The notes below the pieces were generated by a model. The model had not been told where the DNA came from. It saw nothing but the letters and a program-made list of their open reading frames with translations, and ran no database searches. A program made the translations under genes and the position numbers. A stretch of 64,000 nucleotides of DNA from Chryseobacterium wanjuense (GTDB lineage: Bacteria > Bacteroidota > Bacteroidia > Flavobacteriales > Weeksellaceae), in contig NZ_FOIU01000001.1 of the NCBI RefSeq assembly GCF_900111495.1, positions 1,736,001-1,800,000 of the forward strand, read 5' to 3'. This document shows, piece by piece, positions 7,715-42,049 of the stretch (the first letter of the stretch is position 1; the number at the start of each line of letters is the position of its first letter).

Positions 7715-9100
7715 TTATAAATTAAGAATTAAAGGTTGAAGCACTTTCATCTGATAATGCTGTTGTAAAAAAGTTTCATCTATTTTTTTGTTGGAAATCA
7801 CCATCGAAGCTCCCAACGCAGAACCTAGCGGAGAATGTGTAGACATCACGTTGTAATGCTGAAAATGGTGAGACATCAGCTTCATAAAAACATCATTGTC
7901 TGTAAATCCGCCGTCGATGTAAATGTTTTCAATTTCTGAATTTCCGATCGCATTTTTAATGGTATGAATCTGCAGATCCATCAATTCTATCATTAATTGA
8001 TGATACGCTTCTTCAAAGGTCTGGAATGAGTTTAAATCTGTTTCACTGATCATTTTTCGTTTTAAAGCAATACCTTCAAAACGGAAATAAACCGCTTTAT
8101 TTTTCATTAAACGAAGATACAAATCCTGATCAAACTGCACTTCCCTGTGGAAACCATATTCTTTTCCGTAATAATCACACAGTTTTTCTACCTGAATTTT
8201 GTATTCATTTCCCATGAAAAAACGCGATGCTTTCACACGTTTACCGTCGATTCGCATATAATTCAGGCAATTGTTTTCAATGTCTTCATCCGTCAGACTT
8301 TCATCATTAAATGGATTTAAAGAAATACTCCATGTTCCTGTCGACAGCAATAAGAACGGTTCTTTTTTACTTAAAATATAAGGTAACAACGCTGAAGAGC
8401 TGTCATGAATTCCAACGCCGATTTTTATTTTTTTGTTTCTGTATGAAGTGTTGATACTTGCAGAAGTCGGTACAATCGGTCCCAATAAGGCATCGATTCC
8501 CTCTTCGTAAACCCAGTCATGATAATCTGCTTTGTCATAATCCCACAAATTGGTGTGGCAGCCTATCGAAGTGAATTCCGACACACAAATTCCGGTAAAT
8601 AAATACGACAAATACTGAGGCAAATGCAGGCTGTACCTGATTTTTTTGAAGGTTTCCGGATGCTTGTATTTTAACCAGAATAATTGCAACCCTGAATTGA
8701 GCATTCCTGATTGTGGTGATGCTGTTTCGCGTGCAATTTTCAGTTTGTCTCCATGCTTTTCGTAAAATAAATCAAGAATTTCCTCATCCATCGGTTTGGT
8801 GTAATTGTACAAAGGTGTCAGAACATTTCCTTTCTGATCCAGATGTACAAAACTCGCTCCATACGTGGAAAAATTGATTGCTTTTACTTCATATTTTTCA
8901 TTATCAAGAATGGCATTGAAGTTATCTTTGATCCAGTTTTGCAGTGCGGCCAGATCTTCCGTCGGATAACCATCTTCATCGGTAGTGAGCGGCAATTCTG
9001 TATATTCCCGGACAACTTCTTTATAATTTTTATCAAATAAAAAGAATTTTTTATTGGTCTTTCCAATATCAAATACTATGGTTACCTTCTTTTTGGACAT
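7715..9100 (-). CDS. rhaB: FGGY-family kinase, L-rhamnulokinase
   Basis: 461 residues from MSKKKVTIVFDIGKTN. An upstream ATG at 9136 would add 12 residues that do not fit the conserved FGGY start. Motifs: DIGKTNKK (phosphate 1), NFSTYGASFVHLD, GIHDSSSALLPY, LLLSTGTWSISLNP and IYIDGGFTDNDVFMKLMS (adenosine). FGGY kinases phosphorylate sugars; with rhaI, rhaEW and rhaT alongside, L-rhamnulose to L-rhamnulose-1-phosphate is the best assignment. Fuculokinase is the main alternative. It is followed at 3 bp by lldD. Confidence 0.85.
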   Translation of the reverse strand: MSKKKVTIVFDIGKTNKKFFLFDKNYKEVVREYTELPLTTDEDGYPTEDLAALQNWIKDNFNAILDNEKYEVKAINFSTYGASFVHLDQKGNVLTPLYNYTKPMDEEILDLFYEKHGDKLKIARETASPQSGMLNSGLQLFWLKYKHPETFKKIRYSLHLPQYLSYLFTGICVSEFTSIGCHTNLWDYDKADYHDWVYEEGIDALLGPIVPTSASINTSYRNKKIKIGVGIHDSSSALLPYILSKKEPFLLLSTGTWSISLNPFNDESLTDEDIENNCLNYMRIDGKRVKASRFFMGNEYKIQVEKLCDYYGKEYGFHREVQFDQDLYLRLMKNKAVYFRFEGIALKRKMISETDLNSFQTFEEAYHQLMIELMDLQIHTIKNAIGNSEIENIYIDGGFTDNDVFMKLMSHHFQHYNVMSTHSPLGSALGASMVISNKKIDETFLQQHYQMKVLQPLILNL

Positions 9101-9128
9101 TCTTGTGATGAATTTATTTTTATAGTTT

Positions 9129-9213
9129 AAACACAAATGGCACTAATATTTTTCCACTAATAACACAATACCATTCGTGAAATTTGTGTAAAAATTAGTG
9201 TTTATTTGTGTTT
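9129..9213. repeat. Inverted-end repeat upstream of rhaB
   Basis: Ends AAACACAAATGGCACTAAT (9129-9147) and the near reverse complement at 9194-9213 enclose about 45 bases. It occupies the proximal upstream region of rhaB. Confidence 0.6.
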
Positions 9214-9237
9214 TATAATTTAAATATTTTTTTCGAA

Positions 9238-9344
9238 CCATTAAGGAGTGTTCAGATATTAAGATTCATGAAGAAAAAATCCACTAATTTCTCAAGCAAT
9301 GATGCTTAAACCCCAATAATCCAAACACTTTCAACCTTAATGAT
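9238..9344. repeat. Imperfect inverted-end element (CCATTAAGG ends)
   Basis: CCATTAAGG near 9239 and CCTTAATGAT at 9335-9344 are imperfect inverted ends, comparable to 6094-6214. Together with the 9129-9213 repeat it fills most of the 319-bp gap between rhaB and rhaI; no gene is seen there. Confidence 0.35.
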
Positions 9345-9370
9345 AAAAAAATAAGGATACATATAATTAA

Positions 9371-9396
9371 AAACTTTCGATTGCACTTGAAAGTTT
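9371..9396 (-). terminator. Terminator after rhaI, with operator-like loop
   Basis: Read on the minus strand, an 8-bp stem AAACTTTC/GAAAGTTT runs into T5, 24 bp after the rhaI stop codon. The loop reads AAGTGCAATC, so the loop and stem contain GTGCAATCGA, most of the core of the candidate rhamnose operator. Confidence 0.7.
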
Positions 9397-9419
9397 AAAT
9401 TATCAATTTTAAAACAGGA

Positions 9420-10700
9420 TTATAATCCCGTTGCTTTCACATTTAAGCCTCTTTCGGAAATTAAATTTTCTCTTACTTTAAGGTTTCTGTAAGCTGAAAT
9501 CGGGTCTAGCGCTGCCCCTGTCTGCAATCTTGCCGCTCTCAATAACGGACGAACGTCTGTTCTGTAGGCATTCTGCAAAATCTCCTGTGCACGAACGACA
9601 TCGTTATTCAGCTGTGCATCTTTTAATGCTTTCTGATTTACCAAAAGTGCCTGTGCATAAGCAATTAAGATCGCTTCCAAAGACTGAATCAAATCTTCCA
9701 AAGGATCTTTGATATTGTGACTTGCATCGATCATCCAGGCCGGATAAGGATTTTGAGGATTGTTTTCCATACCGTATACCAATTCATTGAAAATCAAGAA
9801 CAAAGCATAAGGTTTGATAGAACCCACCGTTAAATCATCATCTCCATATTTGCTGTCGTTGAAGTGGAAACCACCCAATTTCCCTTTATACATCAGGGTT
9901 GCAACGATCTGCTCGATATTCGTATTCGGTAAATGGTGACCCAAGTCTACCAGCGTGTAAGCTCTTTCTCCACAAGCATTGGCCAGCATAAAAGACGTTC
10001 CCCAATCCTGAATGGTGGTTGAATAGAAATTAGGTTCGTACGGTTTATATTCGATGAATAATCTCCAGTCTTCCGGCATTCCTGCGTAGATTTCTTTTAA
10101 GCTTTTTTCAGTATTTGATAAGGCCGTTTGGAAGTTTAATTGTCCCGGAAAACTTGCGCCATCTGCCAACCAAACGGTTAAGCTTTTGGAACCTAATTCT
10201 TTCCCGATTCTGATCACTTCTTTGTTGTGCTCCACTGCATAAGCTCTTGAATCTTCATTAACACTGTTCAAAGAACCGAATTTATAAGATTGCTCCGCTC
10301 CCGGCTGATCCTGAAACGTGTTGGAATTCATCGCATCAAAAATAAGCCCGTGAGAAGCTGCTTTTTCTTTAATTGCCGCCACATCACTCGGAATATCCCA
10401 TGGAATATGCAAAGATACCGCTCCCGCAGAGTGCGTTAAGGCGTGAATTAACCCAACATCATCTAATTTCTGTTCCAAAGAAGAAGGTTCGCCGCCGTAA
10501 GAAAATCTTCCGAAACGTGTTCCTCCAGCTCCTAAAGCCCAACTCGGAATAGCTACCTGAAAATCGGCAATTTTGTTGACGATTTCCGTAACATTGGCGC
10601 CGGTTTTTGTTAATTTATTTTGTAGAAAATCAAAATCTAAATTAAAATTTTCAACTTCATTTTTATTGTACTGTTCTATAATATCTTTTCCTATAATCAT
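9420..10700 (-). CDS. rhaI: L-rhamnose isomerase, RhaI type
   Basis: 426 residues from MIIGKDIIEQYN; the 14 extra residues of the longer frame (to 10742) are low-complexity and unlike the family. TIM-barrel sugar isomerase features: PSWALGAGGTRFGRF, LHIPWDIPSD, DAMNSNTFQDQ, WLADGASFPGQ, FIEYKPYEPNFY, LVDLGHHLPNTNIEQ, GGFHFNDSKYGDDDLT and DASHN, which supply the E/D/H metal ligands. It interconverts L-rhamnose and L-rhamnulose in the cytosol. It lies between rhaEW and rhaB with gaps of over 200 bp, and a terminator follows it, so it may be its own transcript. Confidence 0.92.
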   Translation of the reverse strand: MIIGKDIIEQYNKNEVENFNLDFDFLQNKLTKTGANVTEIVNKIADFQVAIPSWALGAGGTRFGRFSYGGEPSSLEQKLDDVGLIHALTHSAGAVSLHIPWDIPSDVAAIKEKAASHGLIFDAMNSNTFQDQPGAEQSYKFGSLNSVNEDSRAYAVEHNKEVIRIGKELGSKSLTVWLADGASFPGQLNFQTALSNTEKSLKEIYAGMPEDWRLFIEYKPYEPNFYSTTIQDWGTSFMLANACGERAYTLVDLGHHLPNTNIEQIVATLMYKGKLGGFHFNDSKYGDDDLTVGSIKPYALFLIFNELVYGMENNPQNPYPAWMIDASHNIKDPLEDLIQSLEAILIAYAQALLVNQKALKDAQLNNDVVRAQEILQNAYRTDVRPLLRAARLQTGAALDPISAYRNLKVRENLISERGLNVKATGL

Positions 10701-27604: not shown

Positions 27605-28930
27605 TCAATTTCCATCAGGTTTTAAAGATTCCATAAAGATGCTTTCCGGCCAGTAAAATTTCTCGACGGCATCAGGTTTATTTAAATCAAAACCTTTATA
27701 ATTCTTGGAAACAAATTTACTCAAAGGTAATTTTTGATCTACCATACTTTTTACCACACATTTTGCCAGTTCATAAGCTCCATACGTATTAAAATGAGTG
27801 TCATCCGCCAAAGCATTCGGTTGGTTCGGATAAGAATTTGCCGGATAATAGACAAATGCTTTTTTAGAATTTTCCGGTCCCATTGCTTCAAACAACGTTT
27901 TGCTCATGGCATTTAGATCTATCAAAAATATATTTTCTTCCTTTGCCACTTCACGCATCGCTTCAGGAAAATCATCCAAAGTATTGACAATCTTGTTATT
28001 TTCATCAAAAACATGACGGTTCATTGAAGTCACCAACACCGGAATTGCTCCCCATTGTTTTGCTTTATCAATCCATTCTTTTAACCTTTTTCTATATCCT
28101 GATTTTTCACTATTTCCATACTTTTGGTCGTTGTGTCCGAATTGAATGAATAGGTAATCACCTGGTCTTAATTTCTTCCAGATTTTATCGATTCTGTGAC
28201 GGTCTTCAAAGGCTTTTAGCGTTTCGCCGCTTTCGGCATAATTGGCAATCACAACTTTTTCCGGTACAAAAAAATACGGCAGCATCTGCCCCCACGAAGC
28301 CCACGGTTCGTACTGCGCGTCCACCACAGTGGAATCTCCTGTCAGGTAAATTGTTTTCGCTGTTTTATTAGGCTGAATGATTAATGAACAGACTTTCGGA
28401 GCTTTATCATTAAACTCGATCGTCAGTAAATTGTCCCAATGCAGGTATTTCCTTTCTCTTGGCTTTAATTTTACAATCCCGATTTTTTCTCCATCATGAT
28501 TGCGGATGATGCTGTCTTTTACGTGAACAGTGATTGTTTTTTCTAAAATTTCGCCTTCTTTTGTTTTCACATTATCCAACATGAGGCGACGGTTTTCTAC
28601 GCGAACTGTTGTTTCAGAAGTGCCATTTGTATCGCCAAGATTGAGTTTAATATCATAATTTCCTTCCGGAATGACCACCGAAAAATAGAAAGGTTTGTCG
28701 CTGGTGATGTAATCTCCCGTCAATGCGTTTCCTCCGTTGTCCACGGATTTTAAACCGGAAATATCCATGAAGCCGTAACCTGTTTTTCTATCAAATTTTG
28801 AATTTTTAGTAATGGGGATATATCCGTTTTCGACTCTGCTTCCTCCAAAATCAAATTTGAAAGTGGTTTGTTGAGCAAACATCAACGAACAGACAAAAAT
28901 CATTAAAAATTTTATTCTATTTTCCATCAT
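27605..28930 (-). CDS. Two-domain CE12 rhamnogalacturonan acetylesterase
   Basis: 441 residues with a signal peptide ending FAQ. Residues 22-185 are a beta-rich domain (FKFDFGG, YYFSVVIPEGNYDIKLNLGD-like, VHVKDSIIRN) probably for carbohydrate binding. Residues 190-440 are the SGNH esterase: GDS with S200, QFGHND at 263-268, and D376/H379 in DDTHFN. It is larger than the CE12 enzyme at 21878-22651 and may act on polymer rather than oligomer; that division is inferred. Its start overlaps the GH2 stop (TAATG), so translation is coupled. Confidence 0.85.
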   Translation of the reverse strand: MMENRIKFLMIFVCSLMFAQQTTFKFDFGGSRVENGYIPITKNSKFDRKTGYGFMDISGLKSVDNGGNALTGDYITSDKPFYFSVVIPEGNYDIKLNLGDTNGTSETTVRVENRRLMLDNVKTKEGEILEKTITVHVKDSIIRNHDGEKIGIVKLKPRERKYLHWDNLLTIEFNDKAPKVCSLIIQPNKTAKTIYLTGDSTVVDAQYEPWASWGQMLPYFFVPEKVVIANYAESGETLKAFEDRHRIDKIWKKLRPGDYLFIQFGHNDQKYGNSEKSGYRKRLKEWIDKAKQWGAIPVLVTSMNRHVFDENNKIVNTLDDFPEAMREVAKEENIFLIDLNAMSKTLFEAMGPENSKKAFVYYPANSYPNQPNALADDTHFNTYGAYELAKCVVKSMVDQKLPLSKFVSKNYKGFDLNKPDAVEKFYWPESIFMESLKPDGN

Positions 28931-31785
28931 TAATCCGTTAAAATATTAACTTCCGGCATGGTAAACTGTTTCTTTTCATCGCCCAAATCCGGCAGTCCGA
29001 AATAGAAATACAGTGTTCTTTTAAAAGTTCCGTTGAGATGATTCAACTCACTTTCTGGCCCTAAAGATTCTGTTTTATCATTAATATTAAAAGCCAAAAC
29101 AGTTCCCAACGGCGGTATTGCATCTAGAAATGAAATATTTCCTGTCGGCAATTTCGGATAACCTTCTGCACCATAAATTCCATAAAAATCGAAAAGTCGG
29201 ACGAACATTTTTTCTTCTTTCGTTCCGATGGTGATTTTACCTTCTGCCGTGTCTAGCTGCAACCAGGAAATATCATCAAAATAGCCTTTAAATTCAGGAT
29301 AAATCCATGATGAAAAGCCTGTTCTGGTAGAGTTTTTCAAATTCTGCCAAACATTATAAGTTTGTCCCTGAGTACGATTTTTCCAGACGTGATAAGGACC
29401 TTTGCCCAGCCATTTTGCGTTAATGACATAATTTTCAGGATAATCAAAACTTACGCCTGCAAACGGATAATCGCCTGAAAGTGCATATTCGTAATTTAAC
29501 TCTAAAATTCCGTCAGGATTTAGCTTCCAGATTATTTTATTTCCATTTTTATAGTATGCTTCAATGAATTGATTTTTTCCTTCAGCAAAAGATTTTATAG
29601 ATGATAATTCTACTTTTCCATTCATGAAAACAGGTCCGTTTCGAAAGGTCATTTTTTTTCCTTTTTTATCGAGAATAACTGATTTTAATAATCCATCCTT
29701 TTTCCCGATTGAAAATTCTTTTTCATCAGATTTTAAAATAAATAAAGAATCATTTTCCGCAACAGAAACCGGGAATTCTTTGGTTAAATTTTTCTGAAAC
29801 TGTTTTGAAATTTCAAGATTTGAAGCAATTTTCCAAGTCCAGGTATACATTTCTTTCCCGAAAGGATCGATTGCGGTTAATGACAAAGCATCACTTTCTT
29901 TCCAGTTTTGAGGAAGATTGAGATTAACATTTCCTTTTTCTGTCGGTTTAATATTGGGAGATTCGGCTTTTCCTGTTTTAATACTCTCAAACCCTGATTC
30001 TGATGAGAATGGTGTTTTAAATTGTATTAATTTCCATTCAAACTGACATTCATTTAAGTTGGTAAAATGGTAGCGGTTTTCTACCGGAATACTTCCGTTA
30101 AAATCGTTTGAAATCGTCTTTAAATCAATCTTTACCGGACTGTAAATTTCGCGGATGGCGTAAAAACTTCCCTCCTTTTCACGATGCGGCCCAACAACTC
30201 CATCCGGCGCGTTGATGGCATTGACATCGATCTGATTGTTGAAATCGGTTCTTACCAAACCTTCATCTGCAAACGCCCAGATAAAGCCTCCTGCTCCTTT
30301 TTTGGAATTCCAGTGAAGTTCCCAATAATCGGCCAGAGAAGTTCCGCCGCCGCCATCATCCTGTGCGTGCAAAAATTCGGTCGGCATATAGATATTTTCT
30401 CCGTTAAGGATTTTTTGTGTGCTGTAATAATCTTCGTAATGGTTGCAATCGATCCCGTTGAAAGCATTTCCCGGCTTGTGATGCGCGTGAATGACCGGGC
30501 GATTGGAAAGGTCATATTTTGCAAATTCTGCATCCAGATCAAAATTATGTCCGCCTTCGTTTCCGTTGCTCCAGAAAATGATGGAAGGATGGTTTGCATC
30601 TCTTGTAACCATTTCCCTCACGAGTTTTTTTCCGATTTCCGTGCTGTATTTTTTCTGCCAGCCTGCCAATTCATCCAAGACATATAATCCTAAAGAATCA
30701 CAGATTTTTAAAAATGATCTATTCGGTGGATAATGCGAACAGCGAACGGCATTCATATTCATTTCTTTGATGAGCTGAACATCCATCAAATCAATATTTT
30801 CCGTCACAGAACGACCGGTTTCCGGCCACCAAACGTGTCGGTTGATGCCTTTCATTTTAATTTTAGTTCCGTTGATGTAAATTCCATCATCTTTCCGGAT
30901 TTCAATGGTTCGGAAGCCGAATTTTTCTTCGGTCTGATAAATTCTTCTTTTATTTTTATTTAAAGTAAATTTTGCTTTGTATAAATTCGGCGTTTCGGCT
31001 GTCCAGAGTTTGGGATTTTTAACGGAAAACTGAAGTTGTTTTAAAGTATCTCCTTTTTCAATGTTAACTTGAGATTCAGCAACCAGAGTATTGTTTGAAT
31101 CAAATAATTCCACTTTTAAATTATTGCTGGATTCAATTCCTTTTAAATGAATATTGGAGCGAAAAGTTCCGTCGGCTTTAGCATCAATGGCTGTCCATGA
31201 AATATTTTCTCTTGGAGTCGCTTCCAGATAAACAGGTCTGAAAATTCCTCCCAAAACCCAATAATCGGCGAGACGTTCTGCATTGTTGACGGATTTGTCG
31301 GCGGACATTTTGGAGACTTTGACTTCAAGAATATTCTCTTTTCCGAAAATTAATTTATCAGAAATATCATATTTAAACTCATAAAAAGCGCCTTGATGAG
31401 TTGCTCCGGCAGGCTTTCCATTAATTTTCACTTCGGTGTCGGTCATTGAACCTTCAAAAACGATGTTCACCGATTTTCCTTTCCACGAATTTGAAACTGA
31501 AAACTTGTGTTTATATACACCTACTTCATCATTAAATTTAAAATTTTTGCCGTAGGTTACATAGTCTCTGCCGTAATTGTACGAGCCAAATCCCTGCTGT
31601 TCCCATTGAGAAGGTACCTGGATTTTGCTCCAATTTCCGGATTTCCGACCTCCATTGATCCAAAAATCCCATGCTTCAGTATGCTCAGCATCTTTCCCGC
31701 TCAGGAATTGGATTTCCTTAGACTGAGAATGCAATAATTGTGAGCATAAACATAACAGAAAGAATATTTTAGAAGAATAATTCAT
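28930..31785 (-). CDS. GH2 beta-galactosidase
   Basis: 951 residues, signal peptide ending HSQ. Domain order: jelly-roll (25-190), Ig-like (195-295), TIM barrel (297-600) and C-terminal beta domains ending in a small-chain-type sandwich. Acid/base E410 lies in FWSNGNEGGHN and the probable nucleophile E470 in MPTEFLHA. GVGVYKHKF, NRHVWWPETG and VRCSHYPPNRSF are typical of GH2. It would trim galactose side chains from rhamnogalacturonan I in the periplasm. The specificity is inferred from neighbours; other beta-glycosides are possible. It overlaps both adjacent genes by one base. Confidence 0.87.
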   Translation of the reverse strand: MNYSSKIFFLLCLCSQLLHSQSKEIQFLSGKDAEHTEAWDFWINGGRKSGNWSKIQVPSQWEQQGFGSYNYGRDYVTYGKNFKFNDEVGVYKHKFSVSNSWKGKSVNIVFEGSMTDTEVKINGKPAGATHQGAFYEFKYDISDKLIFGKENILEVKVSKMSADKSVNNAERLADYWVLGGIFRPVYLEATPRENISWTAIDAKADGTFRSNIHLKGIESSNNLKVELFDSNNTLVAESQVNIEKGDTLKQLQFSVKNPKLWTAETPNLYKAKFTLNKNKRRIYQTEEKFGFRTIEIRKDDGIYINGTKIKMKGINRHVWWPETGRSVTENIDLMDVQLIKEMNMNAVRCSHYPPNRSFLKICDSLGLYVLDELAGWQKKYSTEIGKKLVREMVTRDANHPSIIFWSNGNEGGHNFDLDAEFAKYDLSNRPVIHAHHKPGNAFNGIDCNHYEDYYSTQKILNGENIYMPTEFLHAQDDGGGGTSLADYWELHWNSKKGAGGFIWAFADEGLVRTDFNNQIDVNAINAPDGVVGPHREKEGSFYAIREIYSPVKIDLKTISNDFNGSIPVENRYHFTNLNECQFEWKLIQFKTPFSSESGFESIKTGKAESPNIKPTEKGNVNLNLPQNWKESDALSLTAIDPFGKEMYTWTWKIASNLEISKQFQKNLTKEFPVSVAENDSLFILKSDEKEFSIGKKDGLLKSVILDKKGKKMTFRNGPVFMNGKVELSSIKSFAEGKNQFIEAYYKNGNKIIWKLNPDGILELNYEYALSGDYPFAGVSFDYPENYVINAKWLGKGPYHVWKNRTQGQTYNVWQNLKNSTRTGFSSWIYPEFKGYFDDISWLQLDTAEGKITIGTKEEKMFVRLFDFYGIYGAEGYPKLPTGNISFLDAIPPLGTVLAFNINDKTESLGPESELNHLNGTFKRTLYFYFGLPDLGDEKKQFTMPEVNILTD

Positions 31786-33164
31786 TATTTTTTTCCTTCG
31801 TCGGAGTCGTCTTTTTTATCGTATGATTGGTTGAGAGAAGCTATTTTGGTAACAGTTACATTCGTTTTCTTTAAATTTTCAATCGCATTCAAGTTCTGCT
31901 CTTCAGGCTTTAATGCTTTAATTTTTACATTTTCAAAAGTAAAGTCTTTCAACTGGTACAGATCTGATTTTTCAATATCGAAAGCCGTTTGACAACTGAT
32001 GTCGATATTTTTTAGAACAATATTATTTGCTAACCTCCTTTTCGGTGCTTCTTCTCCTTTCAAATCGAAAAACTGGTTCCAGCCTTTTACAAATAAGAAC
32101 GTTTTTACGTTTCCTTTGATATTGTCAAGTGTGATGTATTCGTAGTGTTGCGGCGTATCCGGACGCATTTTCAAATGCAATAATCGTGACGCATCTTTCA
32201 CCGTAGAATTTCTGAAAATGATGTTGTAATTGTGGATCGATTCACTGCCGCACGTCAATGCAGAATGACAGAATCCAAACGTATTGTCTTCGATGATAAT
32301 GTTTCTGTTTTCACCATTATTTGGGTCTTTATCCGCTTTTGGACCTTTTCCGCCTTTCAAGGCAATGGCGTCGTCATTCACGGACATATAACAATTTTTA
32401 ATTAAAAAATCCGAACATGCGTCGATGTCTACAGCGTCTGTACTAGGCGCTTTTACAGGTTCTTTCGGGGCTAAAATTGTTAAGTTTAATAATTTTACGA
32501 ATTGACTTTTATAATAATGAGTGCTCCAGAAAGGTGAATTTTTCACCGTAATATCTTCAATCTGAACATTTTTAGAATTTGAAATATAGATAATGCGAGG
32601 TCTCATTTCATCCATATTGGTGCATTTGGGATTCCATTCGCGTCTTTTCCAGAAGGCTTTCCAGAATCGAAGTCCGTTTCCGTTGAGTGTACCTTTTCCT
32701 GAAATTGTGAAACCATCCAATCCATCGGCGTTTATCAGTGCAGGGAAATATTTTACGGTTTGTCCTTCCATTCTTGTTGTCACAACCGGATAATCGCTGA
32801 TATCGTCACTTCCTTTTAAAACCGCTCCTTTTTCTAAATGCAAATGCGTTCCCTGCTTAAAAAAAACAGAACTGATCAGGAAAGTTCCTTTCGGGACGAT
32901 GATTACCCCACCTCCATTTTTAGCAGCTTCATCAATGACGGCCTGAACCTGTTTTGTCTGCAGGACTGTACTATCATTTTTAACTCCAAAATCTGTAAGA
33001 ATATATTTTTTTCCTAATTTGTTGATGTCTGTAGGCTTATTTTCTTTAAACCATTTCGGAATGAGCGTTCCGTCGGGAAATTTATCCTGGCTTTTCACTC
33101 CTGATGAAAAGAAAAAAAGTATCAATAGAGAGAATAGAAGACTTGATTTATTTTGAAATTTCAT
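31785..33164 (-). CDS. GH28 polygalacturonase / rhamnogalacturonan hydrolase
   Basis: 459 residues, signal peptide ending VKSQ (about 26). A right-handed beta-helix with GH28 signatures: STDAVDID (241-248; the usual NTD is STD here), NDDAIALK (263-270, catalytic D264/D265), CHSALTCGSE (299-308 with H300) and LKMRP (331-335, replacing RIK). It hydrolyses alpha-galacturonosyl linkages. In this setting rhamnogalacturonan I or its unsaturated ends are plausible, but homogalacturonan is not excluded. It is the first gene of the GH28-GH2-CE12 operon, with a GCAGGATACT site upstream. Confidence 0.88.
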   Translation of the reverse strand: MKFQNKSSLLFSLLILFFFSSGVKSQDKFPDGTLIPKWFKENKPTDINKLGKKYILTDFGVKNDSTVLQTKQVQAVIDEAAKNGGGVIIVPKGTFLISSVFFKQGTHLHLEKGAVLKGSDDISDYPVVTTRMEGQTVKYFPALINADGLDGFTISGKGTLNGNGLRFWKAFWKRREWNPKCTNMDEMRPRIIYISNSKNVQIEDITVKNSPFWSTHYYKSQFVKLLNLTILAPKEPVKAPSTDAVDIDACSDFLIKNCYMSVNDDAIALKGGKGPKADKDPNNGENRNIIIEDNTFGFCHSALTCGSESIHNYNIIFRNSTVKDASRLLHLKMRPDTPQHYEYITLDNIKGNVKTFLFVKGWNQFFDLKGEEAPKRRLANNIVLKNIDISCQTAFDIEKSDLYQLKDFTFENVKIKALKPEEQNLNAIENLKKTNVTVTKIASLNQSYDKKDDSDEGKK

Positions 33165-33302: not shown

Positions 33303-33338
33303 GAAAAAGGAAAAACAACTATAATTGCTTTTCCTTTT
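33303..33338 (-). terminator. Terminator after the terpene synthase cluster
   Basis: AAAAGGAAAAAC and GCTTTTCCTTTT are inverted repeats about 26 bp after the last terpene synthase stop. Read on the minus strand the hairpin is followed by T-rich sequence. Confidence 0.75.
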
Positions 33339-33363: not shown

Positions 33364-34392
33364 TTATTTTTTCACAAAAATACTGTGCGGAATGAAGATC
33401 TCGTCTCCTTCTCTGCCGTATTTTGGTACGATAAATCCTTTGGGTTCGTAGCGGTTGGTTCCGGAATTGTAATACCAGTTTGCACAGCCGCTGATCTGCA
33501 GTTTAATATGATAAATATGATTATAAGCTTCTTTCTGAAAAGGTCCGAAATCCGGAAGTGACCGATGCAGCTCGTCGAGTTCATTCGCATAAGCATCATG
33601 CAGTTTCATCGCTTCTGTACAGGCATCCTGATAAGAAAGATTGTACTGATGGCTTAGAATAAAGATAATATTCAGGCATTCGGCTTCTATTTCAAGTTCC
33701 TTTTTCAAAGAGGCAAAATCATTTTGGATTACAATAATTAAAGAAAGCAATTCCCGGCATCTCTGTACAACAGGATGGTTGTAAATGTGGACAGGCAAAG
33801 CAAAATTAACACAAGGATCTATCAAATCCCCGTAAGGCCACATCCCGATGGAATATTTCCGGAAACTCAGATAGTGCGGAAGCAAGGGGTATGTTCTTTT
33901 TTCAGCCTGTTTGAAGGGGATTTCCTCCGCCATTCCGTACATGATGAATTCATAGAAATTCTTGGAAACACGTTCTATCCAGAAACGGGGCATTCCGTTG
34001 ACGATCCATTCCTTTCTTGCCTGTGCCATCTGGCGGAGAATACCGATTTCGCCCGGACTCGGCTCGTCTCCCATCATTATTTCGTAGACACGGTCTGCCA
34101 TTATTTTCAGTTCATTTCTTGGAGTCAGTCCAAAAAAATCATCAAAAAGCGTAATGTAGATCATCAATCTGGCGCAGGGACGCATTCTTTCGATACTATC
34201 GCAAGTCGGATTCATATAAGTGGCCACTCTCGACAGAAACTGTGGTTTGCATCTTTTGATGCCTTCTTCGGAAATAAAAGTATAGTCGCTATCATACCAG
34301 TCTTTTTCTTCATCATCAAATGCATTGGCAATAGGACTATTGACTGTTGGCCACGGATAATGGCATTTGGGAACTATTAATTCTTCTCTCAT
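33364..34392 (-). CDS. Class I terpene synthase 1 (variant aspartate motif)
   Basis: 342 residues, full length for bacterial terpene synthases. The first motif is LFDDFFG: D84 and D85 are present but the family's acidic fifth position is glycine. The NSE triad is complete (N224, S228, E232 in NDFASLKKE). The diphosphate sensor R178 lies 46 residues before N224, and the RY pair is R314-Y315. Such enzymes ionise a prenyl diphosphate, usually GPP or FPP, and cyclise it. The product cannot be predicted. It is the last of three tandem paralogues and no prenyltransferase is adjacent. Confidence 0.88.
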   Translation of the reverse strand: MREELIVPKCHYPWPTVNSPIANAFDDEEKDWYDSDYTFISEEGIKRCKPQFLSRVATYMNPTCDSIERMRPCARLMIYITLFDDFFGLTPRNELKIMADRVYEIMMGDEPSPGEIGILRQMAQARKEWIVNGMPRFWIERVSKNFYEFIMYGMAEEIPFKQAEKRTYPLLPHYLSFRKYSIGMWPYGDLIDPCVNFALPVHIYNHPVVQRCRELLSLIIVIQNDFASLKKELEIEAECLNIIFILSHQYNLSYQDACTEAMKLHDAYANELDELHRSLPDFGPFQKEAYNHIYHIKLQISGCANWYYNSGTNRYEPKGFIVPKYGREGDEIFIPHSIFVKK

Positions 34393-34409
34393 GGTTATAT
34401 ATTTTTAAA

Positions 34410-34445
34410 TAGTTCAATAATAGCTTTTGTATCTTTTGTGGCTAA
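34410..34445. repeat. Right-end fragment of the TTAACCACAAAAG element
   Basis: The stretch with AGTTCAATAAT and CTTTTGTATCTTTTGTGGC matches the right end of the element at 13290-13449. The left end is missing. It lies between terpene synthases 1 and 2. Confidence 0.55.
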
Positions 34446-34483
34446 ATTTTTAATGAGTTTAAACAAACTTTACATTAAAGATA

Positions 34484-35488
34484 TTACAGTTGTATTTTAT
34501 CTGTATTGCTCATTTCCGGCCATGCAAACCCCTCTCCTCCGTGCTTGTATCTTTCTGTTTCTAAGTAAAAAGAATTCACACCCTGCAGCCCAACTCCTGC
34601 ATAATAGACAAATTTATCTACATGTTCCTGATATTCACCAAATTCACGATACTCGGCATGTAAAGTGAGTGCTTTTTCCAACTCTTTGTGATGGATGTTG
34701 AGTGCTTCTGCACAGGCATCCTCCAGCGAAAGATTATATTCCTGCTGCAATACAAAAACGAGGTTGAAAACTTCGGTACCTTTTGCCATTTCTTTCGGCA
34801 GGGAATGAATATCATTTTGCCAGGCAACCACTAAGGTCATGTGAGATATCATCTTTTGGAAAACAATATGTTCAAAAATATGTTCCGGTAAGACAAGTCC
34901 CGATTCAATCTCTCCGAAAATAAGATATGGGCGCATAAGAACAGAATACTCACGAATCGTTTTGAAAAGGGTAAGAGAAGGCGGTCGCTGTGCTATTTTA
35001 TAAGGATATTCCAATTCAATTCCATACCTGAAAGATTGATAGAAATAGTAAATAAAGCGTTCTACCCAAATATCGGGCATCAAAGCACGGAATTCATCCC
35101 GTATCAACGCCATATGATGATAAAGTGCATTTTCTTCAGGTTTTGGCTGAGCTCCCTTGAGAATGTCCACACAACGAATTCGTAACTGCTGGATTTCCTC
35201 TAAGGAAGAGTTTTCTACCTGATCATCAAGAGCAACATACTGAAGCATGAATCTGTTGCAGGGAATAGACTGCTCATAGGTCAGATCCGGCCACATGCGC
35301 GCTGTGCACATATGCAATTTCATTTTCTTGTATGTTTTGCGCTGTTTTTCTGTGAGAAAAGTGTAGTCATTATCAATCCATCCGTCCATATCTTTTCCCA
35401 TTTGTTCTGCATGCGGATTAATAAGGTCGGGCCAGGGATAATGACCGAGTGGCAGGTAATTTTTTGATTTATATTCTTCTGGGTTCAT
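34484..35488 (-). CDS. Class I terpene synthase 2 (canonical motifs)
   Basis: 334 residues. The aspartate motif LDDQVE (D88, D89, E92) and NSE triad NDIHSLPKE (N225, S229, E233) are both canonical. The diphosphate sensor is R179, 46 residues before N225, and the RY pair is R313-Y314. Of the three it best fits the textbook pattern and is the most secure as an active cyclase. It shares the opening PWPxxxNPHA and DYTFLTE with its neighbours, so the three arose by duplication. Substrate and product are unknown. Confidence 0.9.
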   Translation of the reverse strand: MNPEEYKSKNYLPLGHYPWPDLINPHAEQMGKDMDGWIDNDYTFLTEKQRKTYKKMKLHMCTARMWPDLTYEQSIPCNRFMLQYVALDDQVENSSLEEIQQLRIRCVDILKGAQPKPEENALYHHMALIRDEFRALMPDIWVERFIYYFYQSFRYGIELEYPYKIAQRPPSLTLFKTIREYSVLMRPYLIFGEIESGLVLPEHIFEHIVFQKMISHMTLVVAWQNDIHSLPKEMAKGTEVFNLVFVLQQEYNLSLEDACAEALNIHHKELEKALTLHAEYREFGEYQEHVDKFVYYAGVGLQGVNSFYLETERYKHGGEGFAWPEMSNTDKIQL

Positions 35489-35542
35489 TATTTTTCATTT
35501 TTAAGTTTTCTGAAGTGGAAATATTTATAAATTAATATCTCC

Positions 35543-36556
35543 TTATATTTGGTTGAGTCTTTCTTTTAGTTCCTTTGCTTCCGGAAATTCCATTGCGTTA
35601 TAACGGCCGAGCTTGGTAGAGATGTTCTTCCAACCGCTCAGAACCATACTCATGTAGTGTACCCAGTTGACCACAGCATCCTGCCATATTCCAAAATCGG
35701 GAAGTGAAGACTGGAGTTTTACAAATTCTTTTAAATCTTCATTGTGCAGGCGAAGATCTTCAAGGCAGGCTTCTTTCAGGGAAATGTTTTTTTCGTGCTG
35801 TATGACTTTAACAATATTGTAATAAATACTGTCGGTAGCTTCATCTTTCATCACCGATTGTACCTCGTTGAAAAAAGTAACCAGATGGCACGCCAAAGTC
35901 TGCAAACGGCAGATCACCGGATGCTCATGGATCTCGGGAGGCAGGATAATCCCAGTCTCTACCTCGGTAAGCTGCAGGAAGGGATAAAGACATATAGAAT
36001 TTTCGCGTAAAGCAATACATTCTGCTACAGAAGGAAACATTTTGTTCTTTTTGTACTTCAGTTCGGTTTCCAATCCTTTGAAATATCTGCTGATCATCTG
36101 TGTAAAACGGGAAATCGATTCCTGTGGGATGAACTGCAGCAATTCTTCCCGCAATGAAGCCAGCATTCCTCCTAAAGGTATTCCCGATTCTGCGGCGGTT
36201 ATTTCACCATTCAGAACAGCGATGGATCGAGCGTGTACAAACTCAATATCTTCAGGTTCGCTTTCTTCGTAAAGATCATCATTGTATAAAGTCCACAACA
36301 TCAATCTGCAGATAGGCCTGAATCGCTCCATAGATGCCGTCGGAAACCACTGCGCAGCAATATGTGCCGTTTTGGTTTTCTTATACTTTTTGCGGAGGTC
36401 GGGATTTTGCTCGTAGAGCCAGAGATATTCTCCATCAATCCATTGATTTTCGGTAATCTCCTGTAATTGGTCTGCGTGAGGATTTTTTAGTGTTGGAAAA
36501 GGGTACCTAAACTGACTGTTGAGCAGCTCAAGCGGATCAAAATTTTCATGGTTCAT
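35543..36556 (-). CDS. Class I terpene synthase 3 (variant NSE motif)
   Basis: 337 residues, first gene of the cluster. The aspartate motif NDDLYEE is canonical (D93, D94, E97). The second metal motif reads NEVQSVMKD: N230, then E231 in place of D, S234, and D238 in place of E, so the acidic residues are swapped but charge is kept. The sensor R184 lies 46 residues before N230, and the RY pair is R318-Y319. Activity is plausible but untested by sequence. A tandem 10-bp direct repeat lies 63-82 bp upstream. Confidence 0.88.
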   Translation of the reverse strand: MNHENFDPLELLNSQFRYPFPTLKNPHADQLQEITENQWIDGEYLWLYEQNPDLRKKYKKTKTAHIAAQWFPTASMERFRPICRLMLWTLYNDDLYEESEPEDIEFVHARSIAVLNGEITAAESGIPLGGMLASLREELLQFIPQESISRFTQMISRYFKGLETELKYKKNKMFPSVAECIALRENSICLYPFLQLTEVETGIILPPEIHEHPVICRLQTLACHLVTFFNEVQSVMKDEATDSIYYNIVKVIQHEKNISLKEACLEDLRLHNEDLKEFVKLQSSLPDFGIWQDAVVNWVHYMSMVLSGWKNISTKLGRYNAMEFPEAKELKERLNQI

Positions 36557-36933
36557 AATTTGGTGGTTTTTAAGGTTTTAGTTTGATTACTAATATAAAT
36601 TTTTATTTAATATGATACCACATTATTTCACATTATTTTGAATTTTAATGCAAAAATTTTTACATTTTATAGTATTTAAAGGAAATAAATATTGATAAAC
36701 ATTTGTTTAATATCAGCATCAAATCTCAAAAATCCTGTCTTTTTTAATGAAATTGATGACCTCTTTCACTCCCATTTTTTCAACAGAAAAGACTTAAAAA
36801 TAAAAATTAATAAAAAATATAACCACCTAGGTATTGAGTATTCTGATTTTAATTTAAATAAAAGATAATGCAACCTCTTTGCTTTAAAAGAAGCTAGTGT
36901 TGTTAAGAAAAGAAAATTTAATTTGTCTTAAAA
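36557..36933. other. 377-bp gene-free region upstream of the terpene synthases
   Basis: AT-rich, between terpene synthase 3 and the HxlR gene, both on the minus strand. The only structure seen is the direct repeat at 36619-36638. No clear -7 element, hairpin or small ORF was recognised. Confidence 0.6.
36619..36638 (-). promoter_or_regulatory. Tandem CACATTATTT direct repeat before terpene synthases
   Basis: CACATTATTT occurs twice head to tail (36619-36628, 36629-36638), 63-82 bp before the first terpene synthase. One helical turn between half-sites suits an activator that binds as a dimer on one DNA face. The function is inferred. Confidence 0.35.
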
Positions 36934-39999: not shown

Positions 40000-40719
40000 A
40001 TGAAAAAACATGTAATTATTTTACCTGCACTATTAGTTTCAGCCTTTGCCTACTCTCAGGTAGGAATCAATACCCCTGATCCTAAGGCAGATCTAGACAT
40101 TGTAGGAAATACGCTGGGATTGAAATCCAGTGCAAATTCAGGAAGCTGGGACAATATCTGGCTTCAGGTGGACAGCAGAAAGGCTGCCGTAAATGCTTCA
40201 GGTGCAGAAGACGGTCTACAGTTTAATGTCGGAAGCAATAACAAAGGAACTTACGGAGATGACCAAACACTGAAAACCGTAGCTACAATGACGCACAATG
40301 GAAATCTGGGAATAGGAACCACGACTCCTCAAAACAGAATAGACCTTGGAAGTGATGCTCCCGGTGCAACCAATAATCCTGCGGGAAAAAAACTCGCGGT
40401 CTATAACACCTCAACAGCATCTTCTTTTTACGGATTGGGAGTAAGCTCATATACCCTTCAGATACATGCAGGTTCACCTGCTGATGGCGAACCCGGAATG
40501 GTGCTTACCCAATCCGGTAACGTAGGAATCGGAGCACCCTCCCCAAGCTCAAGTGCAATTCTGGAATTAGCTTCTACCAACAAAGGTTTTCTTCCGCCAA
40601 GAATGACAACAGCCCAAAGAGACGCCGTGAATCCCAAGCCTGCAGGACTCATGATTTACAACACGACTGTAAACATTATGCAGTACTGGAACGGTTCATC
40701 CTGGATCAATTACCAATAA
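40000..40719 (+). CDS. Secreted repeat protein A of a tandem duplicate pair
   Basis: 239 residues with a signal peptide ending AYSQ. The mature part has VGINTPDPKADLDI, GNLGIGTTTPQNRIDLGS and GNVGIGAPSPSSSAILEL, short beta repeats of the (V/I)GI(G/N)T.xP type seen in flavobacterial surface proteins, then GFLPPRMTTAQRDAV and a short tail QYWNGSSWINYQ. It is secreted or surface-exposed; no enzyme motif is seen. The following gene repeats this sequence almost throughout (DNA offset 754 bp) and adds a new domain. Confidence 0.85.
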   Translation: MKKHVIILPALLVSAFAYSQVGINTPDPKADLDIVGNTLGLKSSANSGSWDNIWLQVDSRKAAVNASGAEDGLQFNVGSNNKGTYGDDQTLKTVATMTHNGNLGIGTTTPQNRIDLGSDAPGATNNPAGKKLAVYNTSTASSFYGLGVSSYTLQIHAGSPADGEPGMVLTQSGNVGIGAPSPSSSAILELASTNKGFLPPRMTTAQRDAVNPKPAGLMIYNTTVNIMQYWNGSSWINYQ

Positions 40720-40753
40720 TAGAATGATTAATAATAATGTAAACATCAACAGA

Positions 40754-42049
40754 ATGAAAAAAAATATAATTATTCTATCACTATTACTGGTCTCTGCATC
40801 CTTTTACTCGCAGGTCGGGATAAAAACACCCGATCCTAAGGCTTCCTTAGACATTGTCGGAAATACGTTAGGAATGAAAACAGGAGCAAACTCAGGAAGC
40901 TGGGAAAATATCTGGCTTCAGGTGGACAACAGGAAAGCATCCATTAACGCTTCGAGTGCGGAAGACGGTCTGCAATTTAATGTCGGAAGCAACGGTAAGG
41001 GAACTTACGGAGACGATCAGGTATTGAGAACCGTAGCTACAATGACATCTGATGGGAATCTGGGAATAGGAACCACGACTCCTCAAAACAGAATAGATCT
41101 GGGAAGTGATGCTCCCGGTGCAACCAATAATCCTGCGGGGAAGAAACTTGCGGTCTACAATACCTCAACAGCATCATCTTTTTACGGATTGGGGGTAAGC
41201 TCAAATACCCTTCAGATACATGCAGGTTCGGCTGCTGATGGCGAACCGGGAATGGTGCTTACCCGAAACGGAAATGCCGGAATCGGAGCGCCTTCTCCAA
41301 ACTCCGCAGCTTTATTAGAATTAAATTCTATAAATAAAGGTTTTCTCCCACCAAGAATGACAACTGCGCAAAGAGATGCCATCAATCCCAAATTAGCCGG
41401 GCTTACCATTTACAATACCAGTCTCAACTGTATGCAATACTGGAATACCCAGGCCTGGAAAGGCAGCTGTGGCACAACACCGCCAACACCGGATCTTTCG
41501 GCTAACTGTACAGGTTGGAGATTGCCATACAAGACTAACAATCAAAGTGCTACAGGTACTGTAAAAGGGACTTCCCTTACGGCTACTTTTTCAGATTATG
41601 GTAATGTAAAACATTCTACTAATGGCCCGAACAGATGCGGGATTAGCTTAACACCTGCAGACATTTACTGGTTGGGTGACGATAGAAGTCAGAATACCAA
41701 AATGAAGATTAGATTCAGTCGTGGAGTAACTAATTTTAAGGTAATACAAGCCGGAACACATGCCAGAGAAACGTTCACTTTTACTTTAAAATATAAAGGT
41801 GTCGCAGTTTCTCCTACCGTAACGGTTTCCCCGGTGGGAGGATGTAACGATCAGTTCCAGATTACTAAACCAGCCAGCAATCAGGTGGAAGTGAAGTCAC
41901 TGAATAACTGGAATTGGACAGTGGACGGAACAGGTATTATTTACAATATCGGAGGCGTTTGGTTTGATGAAATTGATATTACTGCACTGGAAACAACAAA
42001 CCAGCAAAACGGAAGCAGTTTCAATTTTTGTGTAGGAGATGTTTTATAG
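40754..42049 (+). CDS. Secreted repeat protein B with extra C-terminal domain
   Basis: 431 residues from MKKNIIILSLLLVSASFYSQ; an ATG at 40724 would put ten residues before the signal peptide. Residues 20-235 are near-identical to the preceding protein. Residues 240-431 are new: DLSANCTGWRLPYKTNNQSATGTV, GDDRSQNTKMKIRFSRGVTNFKV, YNIGGVWFDEIDITALE, a beta-rich domain with paired cysteines that I do not recognise. It could be a ligand-binding module displayed by the repeat stalk. The 34-bp gap to the previous gene fits cotranscription. Confidence 0.83.
   Translation: MKKNIIILSLLLVSASFYSQVGIKTPDPKASLDIVGNTLGMKTGANSGSWENIWLQVDNRKASINASSAEDGLQFNVGSNGKGTYGDDQVLRTVATMTSDGNLGIGTTTPQNRIDLGSDAPGATNNPAGKKLAVYNTSTASSFYGLGVSSNTLQIHAGSAADGEPGMVLTRNGNAGIGAPSPNSAALLELNSINKGFLPPRMTTAQRDAINPKLAGLTIYNTSLNCMQYWNTQAWKGSCGTTPPTPDLSANCTGWRLPYKTNNQSATGTVKGTSLTATFSDYGNVKHSTNGPNRCGISLTPADIYWLGDDRSQNTKMKIRFSRGVTNFKVIQAGTHARETFTFTLKYKGVAVSPTVTVSPVGGCNDQFQITKPASNQVEVKSLNNWNWTVDGTGIIYNIGGVWFDEIDITALETTNQQNGSSFNFCVGDVL

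Follow-up and report, generated by a model that had tools for sequence, protein, structure and literature searches.

In a 64,000-nucleotide stretch of the Chryseobacterium wanjuense genome, which we call the window, three terpene synthase genes lie next to each other on one strand: a CjCS-type gene (TS3) comes first, and two other synthases (TS2, then TS1) are directly behind it (Table 1). These genes probably form a diterpene-synthase operon with a single promoter, of a type in which a leader gene precedes one or more followers. What is new is the architecture: the CjCS-type leader is constant and comes first, and the followers vary. As judged from gene order, comparison across genomes shows that putative leaders of this type come first in their groups within the genus sample, and that neighboring synthase genes are rare without one. 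Leader-follower arrays were not described in titles or abstract openings from the CC-licensed literature in PMC (which is no proof of absence).

Table 1. Features of the synthase array, by position in the window.
Feature	Position	Strand	Description
Promoter-like element GTGAAATAA-N-TATATTAG	36590..36631	-	begins 75 nt upstream of the TS3 start
TS3 (leader), CjCS-type diterpene synthase	35543..36556	-	337 aa; DDLYEE, R184, NEVQSVMKD with D238, RY
TS2 (first follower), class I synthase	34484..35488	-	334 aa; canonical DDQVE, NDIHSLPKE, RY
TS1 (second follower), class I synthase	33364..34392	-	342 aa; DDFFG, R178, NDFASLKKE, RY
Terminator-like inverted repeat	33305..33338	-	directly 3' of the TS1 stop; 15-bp stem with only 3 G-C pairs

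The genes are transcribed in the order TS3, TS2, TS1, with 54 nt from the stop of TS3 to the start of TS2 and 91 nt from the stop of TS2 to the start of TS1. On the genes' own strand, neither gap contains a terminator-like site. The inverted repeat behind TS1 suggests the end of the operon, although this signal is weak on its own (6 terminator-like sites were found in the region, compared to 3.5 expected). Standard promoter scans gave no signal above chance. The strict form of GTGAAATAA-N-TATATTAG, a pattern that we picked after inspecting 25 of 71 leader upstreams, is found in 11 of the 71 and in 0 of 106 partner upstreams. The short gaps without terminator-like sites, the repeat after TS1, and the leader-only element fit with co-transcription.

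Shared regulation might be all that holds these arrays together. If the sole promoter is on the leader, then expression would be limited to genes captured behind it and the rest would be lost, with no biochemical coupling. The leader-only element and the short gaps between array genes fit this idea, and the genes flanking the window's array do not recur beside other arrays (weak matches or none). We consider this explanation possible but somewhat doubtful, and we return to it below.

All three synthases are intact. The first-pass annotation had described three full-length synthases with specific metal-binding motifs, a sensor Arg, and an RY pair, and this is confirmed by the open reading frames, by PF19086 from Pfam, and by alignments. 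The scores for PF19086 are 110 bits (TS3), 103.1 bits (TS2), and 95.7 bits (TS1), all above the cut-off of 23.7 bits, so these matches are not due to chance. In each protein, the sensor Arg is 46 residues N-terminal of the Asn of the NSE motif (R178/N224 in TS1, R179/N225 in TS2, and R184/N230 in TS3). The NSE triad and the RY pair are also present in each, with Asp replacing Glu in TS3, as in CjCS. The aspartate-rich motif, DDxx(x)D/E, is complete in TS2 and TS3; TS1 has the first two Asp without the third acid. TS1, which is the only protein whose fold we examined, is confidently predicted to have the structure of a class I synthase (pLDDT 87), and the best match in PDB for this predicted structure is T-muurolol synthase (TM 0.77/0.86, E = 2.9e-11).

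The genes are also constrained. Using NG86, with saturated pairs dropped, the median dN/dS was 0.05 for TS1 (14 of 20 pairs were usable), 0.04 for TS2 (22 of 29), and 0.04 for TS3 (only 5 of 52). The idea that TS1 is a decaying pseudogene is ruled out by its dN/dS of ~0.05 across the 14 usable pairs; the relatives in this comparison were detected through their open frames, which under-counts broken copies.

Of the nine positions in NDxxSxxxE, the metal ligands are the N, the S, and the E. This implies that the D-to-E change at the second position of the motif in TS3 is not a ligand swap; of the two swapped residues that had been proposed for TS3, only the E-to-D change at 238 stands. Position 238 is described as part of the NSE triad (PMC12535395). 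The last position of the motif is Asp in 121/121 and 73/73 aligned rows of the TS3 type, which rules out a sequencing error or drift. Similarly, the third-acid position in the 23 closest homologs of TS1 is usually G (20 G, 2 A, and 1 E). Because these residues are nearly fixed among relatives, they are features of their clades and not relaxed motifs, as had been proposed. Active synthases with an altered third position include epi-isozizaene synthase (86DDHRN) and sesterviolene synthase (88DDFIV) (PMC10509563). Like TS1, these are class I synthases with a change at the third position of the aspartate-rich motif; unlike TS1, they are actinobacterial, and we liken them by motif only.

The first-pass annotation had interpreted the locus as a tandem duplication whose relaxed but charge-conserving metal motifs suggest new products or substrates. 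The motif letters are as claimed. But pairwise identities are just 31% (TS1/TS2), 30% (TS2/TS3), and 25-27% (TS1/TS3), and the three proteins fall in three separate clades of our tree (its long branches are unsure, and 3 of 40 fetched rows duplicate genes of the array set). Also, the motifs are conserved within each clade, and TS3 matches a characterized enzyme. On this sequence evidence, the three are old separate lineages, not recent duplicates, and a scenario of recent duplication with relaxed motifs and new substrates is extremely unlikely. The interpretation was partly supported, in that the synthases are intact and constrained.

CjCS (WP_076356785) from C. joostei converts GGPP to chryseojoostenes, via a mechanism that includes deprotonation-reprotonation (PMC12535395). 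TS3 is from a related organism, its NSE motif also ends in D238, and it is identical to CjCS, at identical numbers, for 7/7 of the active-site residues discussed for that enzyme (I66, M86, L90, I188, C189, L190, and D238; offset 0) (PMC12535395). The next-best offset within 30 gives 2/7. So, TS3 groups with an enzyme of known product, which is an outcome that the annotation had listed as evidence against its own view, and its expectation of new substrates is not supported for TS3, whose 7/7 residues are those of a characterized GGPP cyclase. We predict that TS3 cyclizes GGPP via 1,11-10,14-cyclization to form chryseojoostene-type diterpenes.

The CjCS gene was stated to be in no cluster (PMC12535395). 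In contrast, a second synthase is directly behind TS3 and also directly behind a 7/7 CjCS-type gene from C. joostei (locus L169), and the window also has a third. At L169, the second gene is of the TS2 type (P0153) and lies 56 nt behind the first. This arrangement bears on the published no-cluster record.

Other diterpene synthases from Chryseobacterium include CwWS (wanjudiene synthase) and CpPS (polytrichastrene synthase) (PMC7383580, PMC8518897). The window's genome encodes another synthase (L007) that matches six CpPS residues. A further one, L003, shares T86 and V191 with CwWS and also matches at four positions that we inferred from CpPS. In our tree, the CwWS/CpPS clade is apart from TS1, TS2, and TS3, and it comprises mainly single genes. 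CsDTPS, ClDTPS, and CvTPS are expressed synthases (PMC7192455).

No polyprenyl synthase (PF00348) or P450 matches were found within the window, which agrees with the earlier claim that no prenyltransferase or P450 is linked to the array. There are three matches to PF00348 elsewhere in the genome, and GGPP would come from a prenyltransferase encoded elsewhere. The claim that precursors come from elsewhere holds for the window but not for all related loci, as 7/73 have a polyprenyl synthase in the fetched flank, and DXS and LytB are at 5. In P. caeni (a Pedobacter; L066), the gene order is polyprenyl synthase, GcpE, DXS, LytB, DXR, leader, and TS1-type; this leader-follower pair terminates an isoprenoid-precursor operon. 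Among the 14 most widespread neighbor families, there was no P450 or methyltransferase (7 representatives were scanned with Pfam and the rest were checked by eye). We rejected conserved tailoring genes in the flanks: beside other arrays, the HxlR, SDR, and pectin genes of the window find only weak matches or none.

Across 60 genomes from the genus, groups with a TS3-type gene were multi-gene in 27/28 cases, with the TS3-type gene first in 28/28, and groups without one were single genes in 27/28 cases (Fisher p = 2e-13). In 20 genomes from other genera, 17/23 leader groups were multi-gene and 95/96 other groups were single (p = 1e-14). Among the matches listed from 173 genomes of the genus, a TS3-type gene was upstream of TS2 types in 36/36 cases at 60% identity or above and in 14/14 cases at 45-50% (a broken copy in 2 of these 14), and upstream of TS1 types in 27/29 cases at 75% or above; 9/45 of the TS1-like genes (39-57%) had no leader. 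Some genomes have more than one leader: among the matches listed, 14/52 had 2-4 copies (2-3 intact), and copies within one genome carry different follower sets. In a tree of leaders with 73 rows, the label of the next gene changes 34 times (counting "none" and "other" as labels). In a class-wide sample of 395 genomes, the window's own genome was the only one with a leader match (E <= 1e-50); this sample was too sparse to use.

The thresholds behind the counts of groups, followers, and upstream elements were our choice. The locus set was leader-centered: of 74 loci, we removed L083 (a fragment without a full ORF) and L084 (not a leader), which left 72 leaders. Broken or partial copies were counted as leaders (G062:C27:10649, G058:C3:356345, G168, and G063:C4:105935). 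Without them, the upstream counts by hand were 12/14 for TS2-like genes and 34/45 for TS1-like genes, and 64/73 leaders had a follower within 400 nt (all among the matches listed); 25/26 leader groups were multi-gene.

We lean slightly towards the view that TS2 and TS1 draw mainly on the GGPP pool that TS3 also uses. They would be diterpene cyclases expressed together with TS3, and the strain would owe a product set of its own to them. This view leaves three observations without an explanation: no TS2 type was found in the genus without a TS3-type gene, 14 of the 52 genomes among the matches listed have 2-4 leader copies, and motif-disrupted followers are retained. The combination of a constant leader with a changing set of followers suggests dependence of the latter on the former. 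We view a need for the leader protein or the leader's product as a tentative alternative. Against dependence, the fetched flank of 9/72 named leader loci contained no follower on the same strand, and among the matches listed, 9/45 TS1-like genes (39-57%) and 2/29 TS1 genes were leaderless. Also, the follower is still present beside a broken leader in 2/28 leader groups from the 60 genomes, and the sole leaderless multi-gene group (G141) is a pair in which an intact synthase comes after a frame-broken one. CjCS is active alone in vitro, and cultured C. joostei emitted no diterpenes (PMC12535395).

The two TS2-like followers that remain behind broken leaders, along with the G141 pair, slightly lower our confidence in dependence and raise it for linkage through the promoter alone, which allows such followers. 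But under promoter linkage alone, leader loss should be more common than the 2/50 seen for TS2 types among the matches listed, and the presence of several leaders in a single genome would have no explanation.

In four array followers, the Asp motif is ED, the NSE Glu is Lys, and the Arg of RY is lost. At locus L011, the second gene (9026-10036) is a motif-disrupted follower. These four have dN/dS of 0.10-0.17, which indicates purifying selection, and they lose motif columns preferentially (4/10 versus 17/183 other invariant columns, p = 0.014). The third acid is missing from TS1 and from followers of clusters c7 and c15. The sensor Arg, RY pair, and NSE triad are kept in 36/36 TS2-type and 37/37 TS1-cluster followers.

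One way for followers to depend on the leader's product is a relay in trans: the leader's neutral diterpene would be re-protonated and rearranged by the follower. In that case, a follower would require the leader but could sometimes do without residues that bind diphosphate. The precedent is geosmin synthase, which has two fused class I domains in sequence; its C-terminal domain protonates, cyclizes, and fragments the neutral product of the N-terminal domain (PMC7251104, PMC7192455). In contrast, the arrays have separate genes with a variable second partner, and the relay is only hypothetical here. It would account for followers being mostly behind a leader, for the exchange of the next gene behind a constant leader, for the constraint on the four motif-disrupted followers, and for the missing third acid in TS1, c7, and c15; the deprotonation-reprotonation of CjCS (PMC12535395) also fits. 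But the motifs kept in 36/36 and 37/37 followers are beyond what a neutral substrate needs, and some followers remain where the leader is broken. We consider a relay unlikely.

Alternatively, leader and follower might form a mixed oligomer, in which the leader stabilizes or tunes the follower and the disrupted followers are structural or regulatory subunits. The linkage and fixed order of the genes, the purifying selection on disrupted copies that have preferentially lost motif columns, and the several leader copies per genome with differing follower sets are consistent with this. However, CjCS is active without a partner (PMC12535395), and we judge this explanation to be improbable as well.

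Most assays of class I terpene synthases take a single gene at a time. If the followers are leader-dependent, then some "inactive" or poorly productive homologs were perhaps assayed without their partner. It is conceivable, although we would bet against it, that Bacteroidota have a two-component terpene cyclase: a constant CjCS-type leader plus an exchangeable follower that uses the leader's neutral product or partners with it. If this is true, then some followers can lose key metal-diphosphate residues and yet stay under selection, and the published single-enzyme assays of array members missed the real natural products.

The proteins encoded by TS1, TS2 and TS3 all exceed the PF19086 cut-off in a profile search, and the genes are separated by 54 nt (TS3/TS2) and 91 nt (TS2/TS1). 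The motifs noted in the first-pass annotation are borne out: DDFFG in TS1, canonical motifs in TS2, and NEVQSVMKD in TS3, along with the RY pair and a sensor Arg 46 residues ahead of the NSE Asn in all three. Elsewhere in the source genome (4.67 Mb), there are four further PF19086 matches, each solitary. On other contigs of this genome, one single synthase (L003) matches wanjudiene synthase at two named and four inferred residues, whereas another (L007) matches polytrichastrene synthase at six named residues; given these matches, the strain may perhaps make those diterpenes too. Within the window, two similar neighboring genes at 40000-42049 had no Pfam match.

Terpene synthase genes of the window, and motif-disrupted synthases behind a leader (a TS3-type gene, first of its array)
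Gene or locus	Coordinates	Strand	Description
TS3	35543-36556	minus	class I terpene synthase, first in transcription
TS2	34484-35488	minus	class I terpene synthase, second in transcription
TS1	33364-34392	minus	class I terpene synthase, third in transcription
L011	9026-10036		synthase with disrupted catalytic motifs directly behind leader, frame intact
L013	9026-10036		synthase with disrupted catalytic motifs directly behind leader, frame intact
L019	9026-10036		synthase with disrupted catalytic motifs directly behind leader, frame intact
L078	9026-10036		synthase with disrupted catalytic motifs directly behind leader, frame intact
L119	9604-10614		synthase with disrupted catalytic motifs directly behind leader, frame intact

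TS3 resembles the chryseojoostene synthase of C. joostei (CjCS), which converts GGPP to chryseojoostenes. The published work on CjCS gives seven mutated positions (I66, M86, L90, I188, C189, L190, and D238), remarks that Glu is usual at the NSE position of D238, and reports that D238E lowered output (PMC12535395). TS3 shares all seven residues, with identical numbering; the next best offset gives two matches. All seven are kept in 92 of the 120 TS3 homologs among the matches listed, which include five window copies. In TS3-type proteins, Asp occupies the last NSE position in 121/121 and 73/73 aligned rows, and Glu the second in 121/121 and 69/73. Because Asp is fixed in these rows and the CjCS residues match, the swapped motif of TS3 is a clade feature of a characterized type of diterpene synthase.

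The third-acid position of TS1 is Gly in 20 of its 23 closest homologs (at least 67% identity), Ala in 2, and Glu in 1; it is also Glu in four more distant homologs. All 21 members of the TS1 cluster from named loci (at least 76% identity, counting the window copy) have Gly; this state is found in array clusters c7, c15, and c16 as well, and in another synthase of the same genome (L002, FDDLYG). Active enzymes with DDHRN and DDFIV motifs are described in a published study (PMC10509563). Purifying selection on TS1 is strong (median dN/dS of 0.05; 14 of 20 pairs usable), and its predicted structure (pLDDT 87) is that of a class I synthase, with T-muurolol synthase as the nearest. The window enzymes themselves are members of known families.

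We collected 74 named loci around TS3 homologs, of which 72 contain a leader ORF. In the fetched flank, a same-strand synthase (the follower) lies downstream at 63 of the 72 and within 400 nt at 60; the spacing is typically 26-110 nt in a tally of 73 loci that includes L084, which has no leader. At three of the nine loci with no same-strand downstream synthase in this flank (L053, L069, and L071), an opposite-strand synthase adjoins the leader. The Dyadobacter locus (L054) does have a synthase on the leader's strand, but about 8 kb farther along, past MEP-pathway genes. The leaders at L057, L061, and L063, which lack any follower, form one clade with branches of 0.31-0.7 (median end branch 0.089), as if their constraint had altered after partner loss.

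To avoid leader-centered bias, we took 60 of the 173 genus genomes and examined every PF19086 match in them. There were 106 matches, spread over 24 genomes and falling into 56 groups under a 2 kb rule. When a group included a TS3-type gene, it was multi-gene in 27/28 cases, with that gene first in 28/28 (two of these hold a broken copy), while groups without one were single in 27/28 (Fisher p = 2e-13). The lone exception, G141 (L170 649-2791), has a frame-broken c7-related synthase and then an intact L002-like synthase. Outside Chryseobacterium, a leader was found in 21 genomes, of which we also surveyed 20; as they were picked for holding a leader, the contrast is informative only within genomes. 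Leader groups were multi-gene on one strand in 17/23 cases (20/23 on either strand) with the leader first in 21/23, and leaderless groups were multi-gene in 1/96 (p = 1e-14). That one is from Pedobacter caeni (G576:C11:162024-163666), where a TS2-type gene is second behind a different synthase. Possibly, the leaderless pairs of P. caeni and G141 have another kind of leader. We did not find the leader-follower rule in the literature searched, whose coverage omits most subscription papers. At L169 (1307-3366) in genome G059, taken as C. joostei, a CjCS-type gene with 7/7 residues is followed 56 nt later by a TS2-type synthase (P0153). This contradicts the published statement on CjCS that there is no gene cluster.

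Followers need the leader more than the leader needs followers. Across the 173 genus genomes, TS2 types have a same-strand TS3-type gene no more than 9 kb upstream in 36/36 cases (30 directly), and TS1 types (at least 75% identity) have one in 27/29. Among the matches listed, the same holds for 14/14 TS2-like (45-50%) and 36/45 TS1-like proteins (39-57%), with two of each behind broken copies. From the leader's side, a listed follower lies no more than 400 nt from 66 of 75 long leader places (52 genomes; two places broken). A strict dependence on the leader is opposed by lone followers and by followers beside broken leaders. A TS2-like follower is retained beside a broken or truncated leader copy at G058:C3:356345-358426 and G063:C4:105935-107222.

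Two to four long leader places are present in 14 of the 52 genomes; for instance, C. jejuense CC143 has three leader loci whose follower sets differ. Along the 73-row leader tree, the next-gene label, with "none" and "other" counted as labels, changes 34 times, versus a shuffled mean of 42.4 (as low in 0/200), so follower types are clustered and yet have often been exchanged. In a tree of the array set and 40 synthases fetched from leaderless groups, the leaders make up a single clade, and most followers belong to two further clades (13 followers and 1 single; 23 followers and 6 singles), all apart from the clade of wanjudiene and polytrichastrene synthases. Thus, leaders and followers represent separate lineages, and genes of follower type are occasionally solitary.

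Some arrays are linked to precursor genes. A polyprenyl synthase is in the flank at 7/73 loci (on the opposite strand at two), together with DXS and LytB at 5. In P. caeni (L066, 598-10029), the genes run in the order polyprenyl synthase, GcpE, DXS, LytB, DXR, leader, and TS1-type; P. cryoconitis (L062, 580-11070) apparently has the same order plus an extra synthase (GcpE was judged by eye). Both Pedobacter loci are compact operons in which four MEP-pathway genes are combined with a polyprenyl synthase and two or three terpene synthases, and variants occur in Parapedobacter, Taibaiella, and Dyadobacter. Ahead of the first DDxxD, the flank polyprenyl synthases have Phe at -5 (except at L069) and a small residue at -4, a pattern that we take, as a lead, to mark C20 synthases. 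The window's genome has three PF00348 genes, all outside the window; one (L008) shares this pattern and is 39-43% identical to the cluster enzymes.

An element, GTGAAATAA ... TATATTAG, sits 75 nt ahead of TS3. Its strict form occurs in 11/71 leader upstreams and 0/106 partner upstreams (0.02 expected from shuffles), with the pattern derived from 25 of these same stretches. A terminator-like repeat follows TS1; both features fit a single operon. Past this site, at 27605-33164, are GDSL esterase, GH2, and GH28 genes (pectin-type degradation) on the array's strand. TS3, TS2, and TS1 are probably a co-transcribed diterpene synthase operon in which TS3 would convert GGPP to chryseojoostene-type products. 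In the simplest chemistry, TS2 and TS1 would share GGPP with TS3.

The motif-disrupted followers are found in four arrays from three named species (L011, L013, L019, and L078) and recur in G101. DD is changed to ED, the NSE Glu to Lys with Ser at the second NSE position, and the RY Arg to H, Y, or C; the sensor Arg is also missing in two of the four, while the N and S ligands are retained. Although the first-position D-to-E change is conservative, these proteins are predicted to be inactive. Loss affects motif columns more often than other invariant columns (4/10 vs. 17/183, p = 0.014), and dN/dS among the four copies is 0.10-0.17 (bootstrap upper limits at most 0.21 in five pairs and 0.30 in the closest pair). 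They are a possible conserved pseudo-enzyme. Conservation of a protein that is unlikely to ionize a diphosphate points to action on a neutral substrate or to a function as a subunit. Rather than by a shared GGPP pool, the gene order, the linkage, the repeated leaders, and the motif-disrupted followers are better explained if followers act on the leader's neutral diterpene, or if leader and follower form one mixed oligomer.
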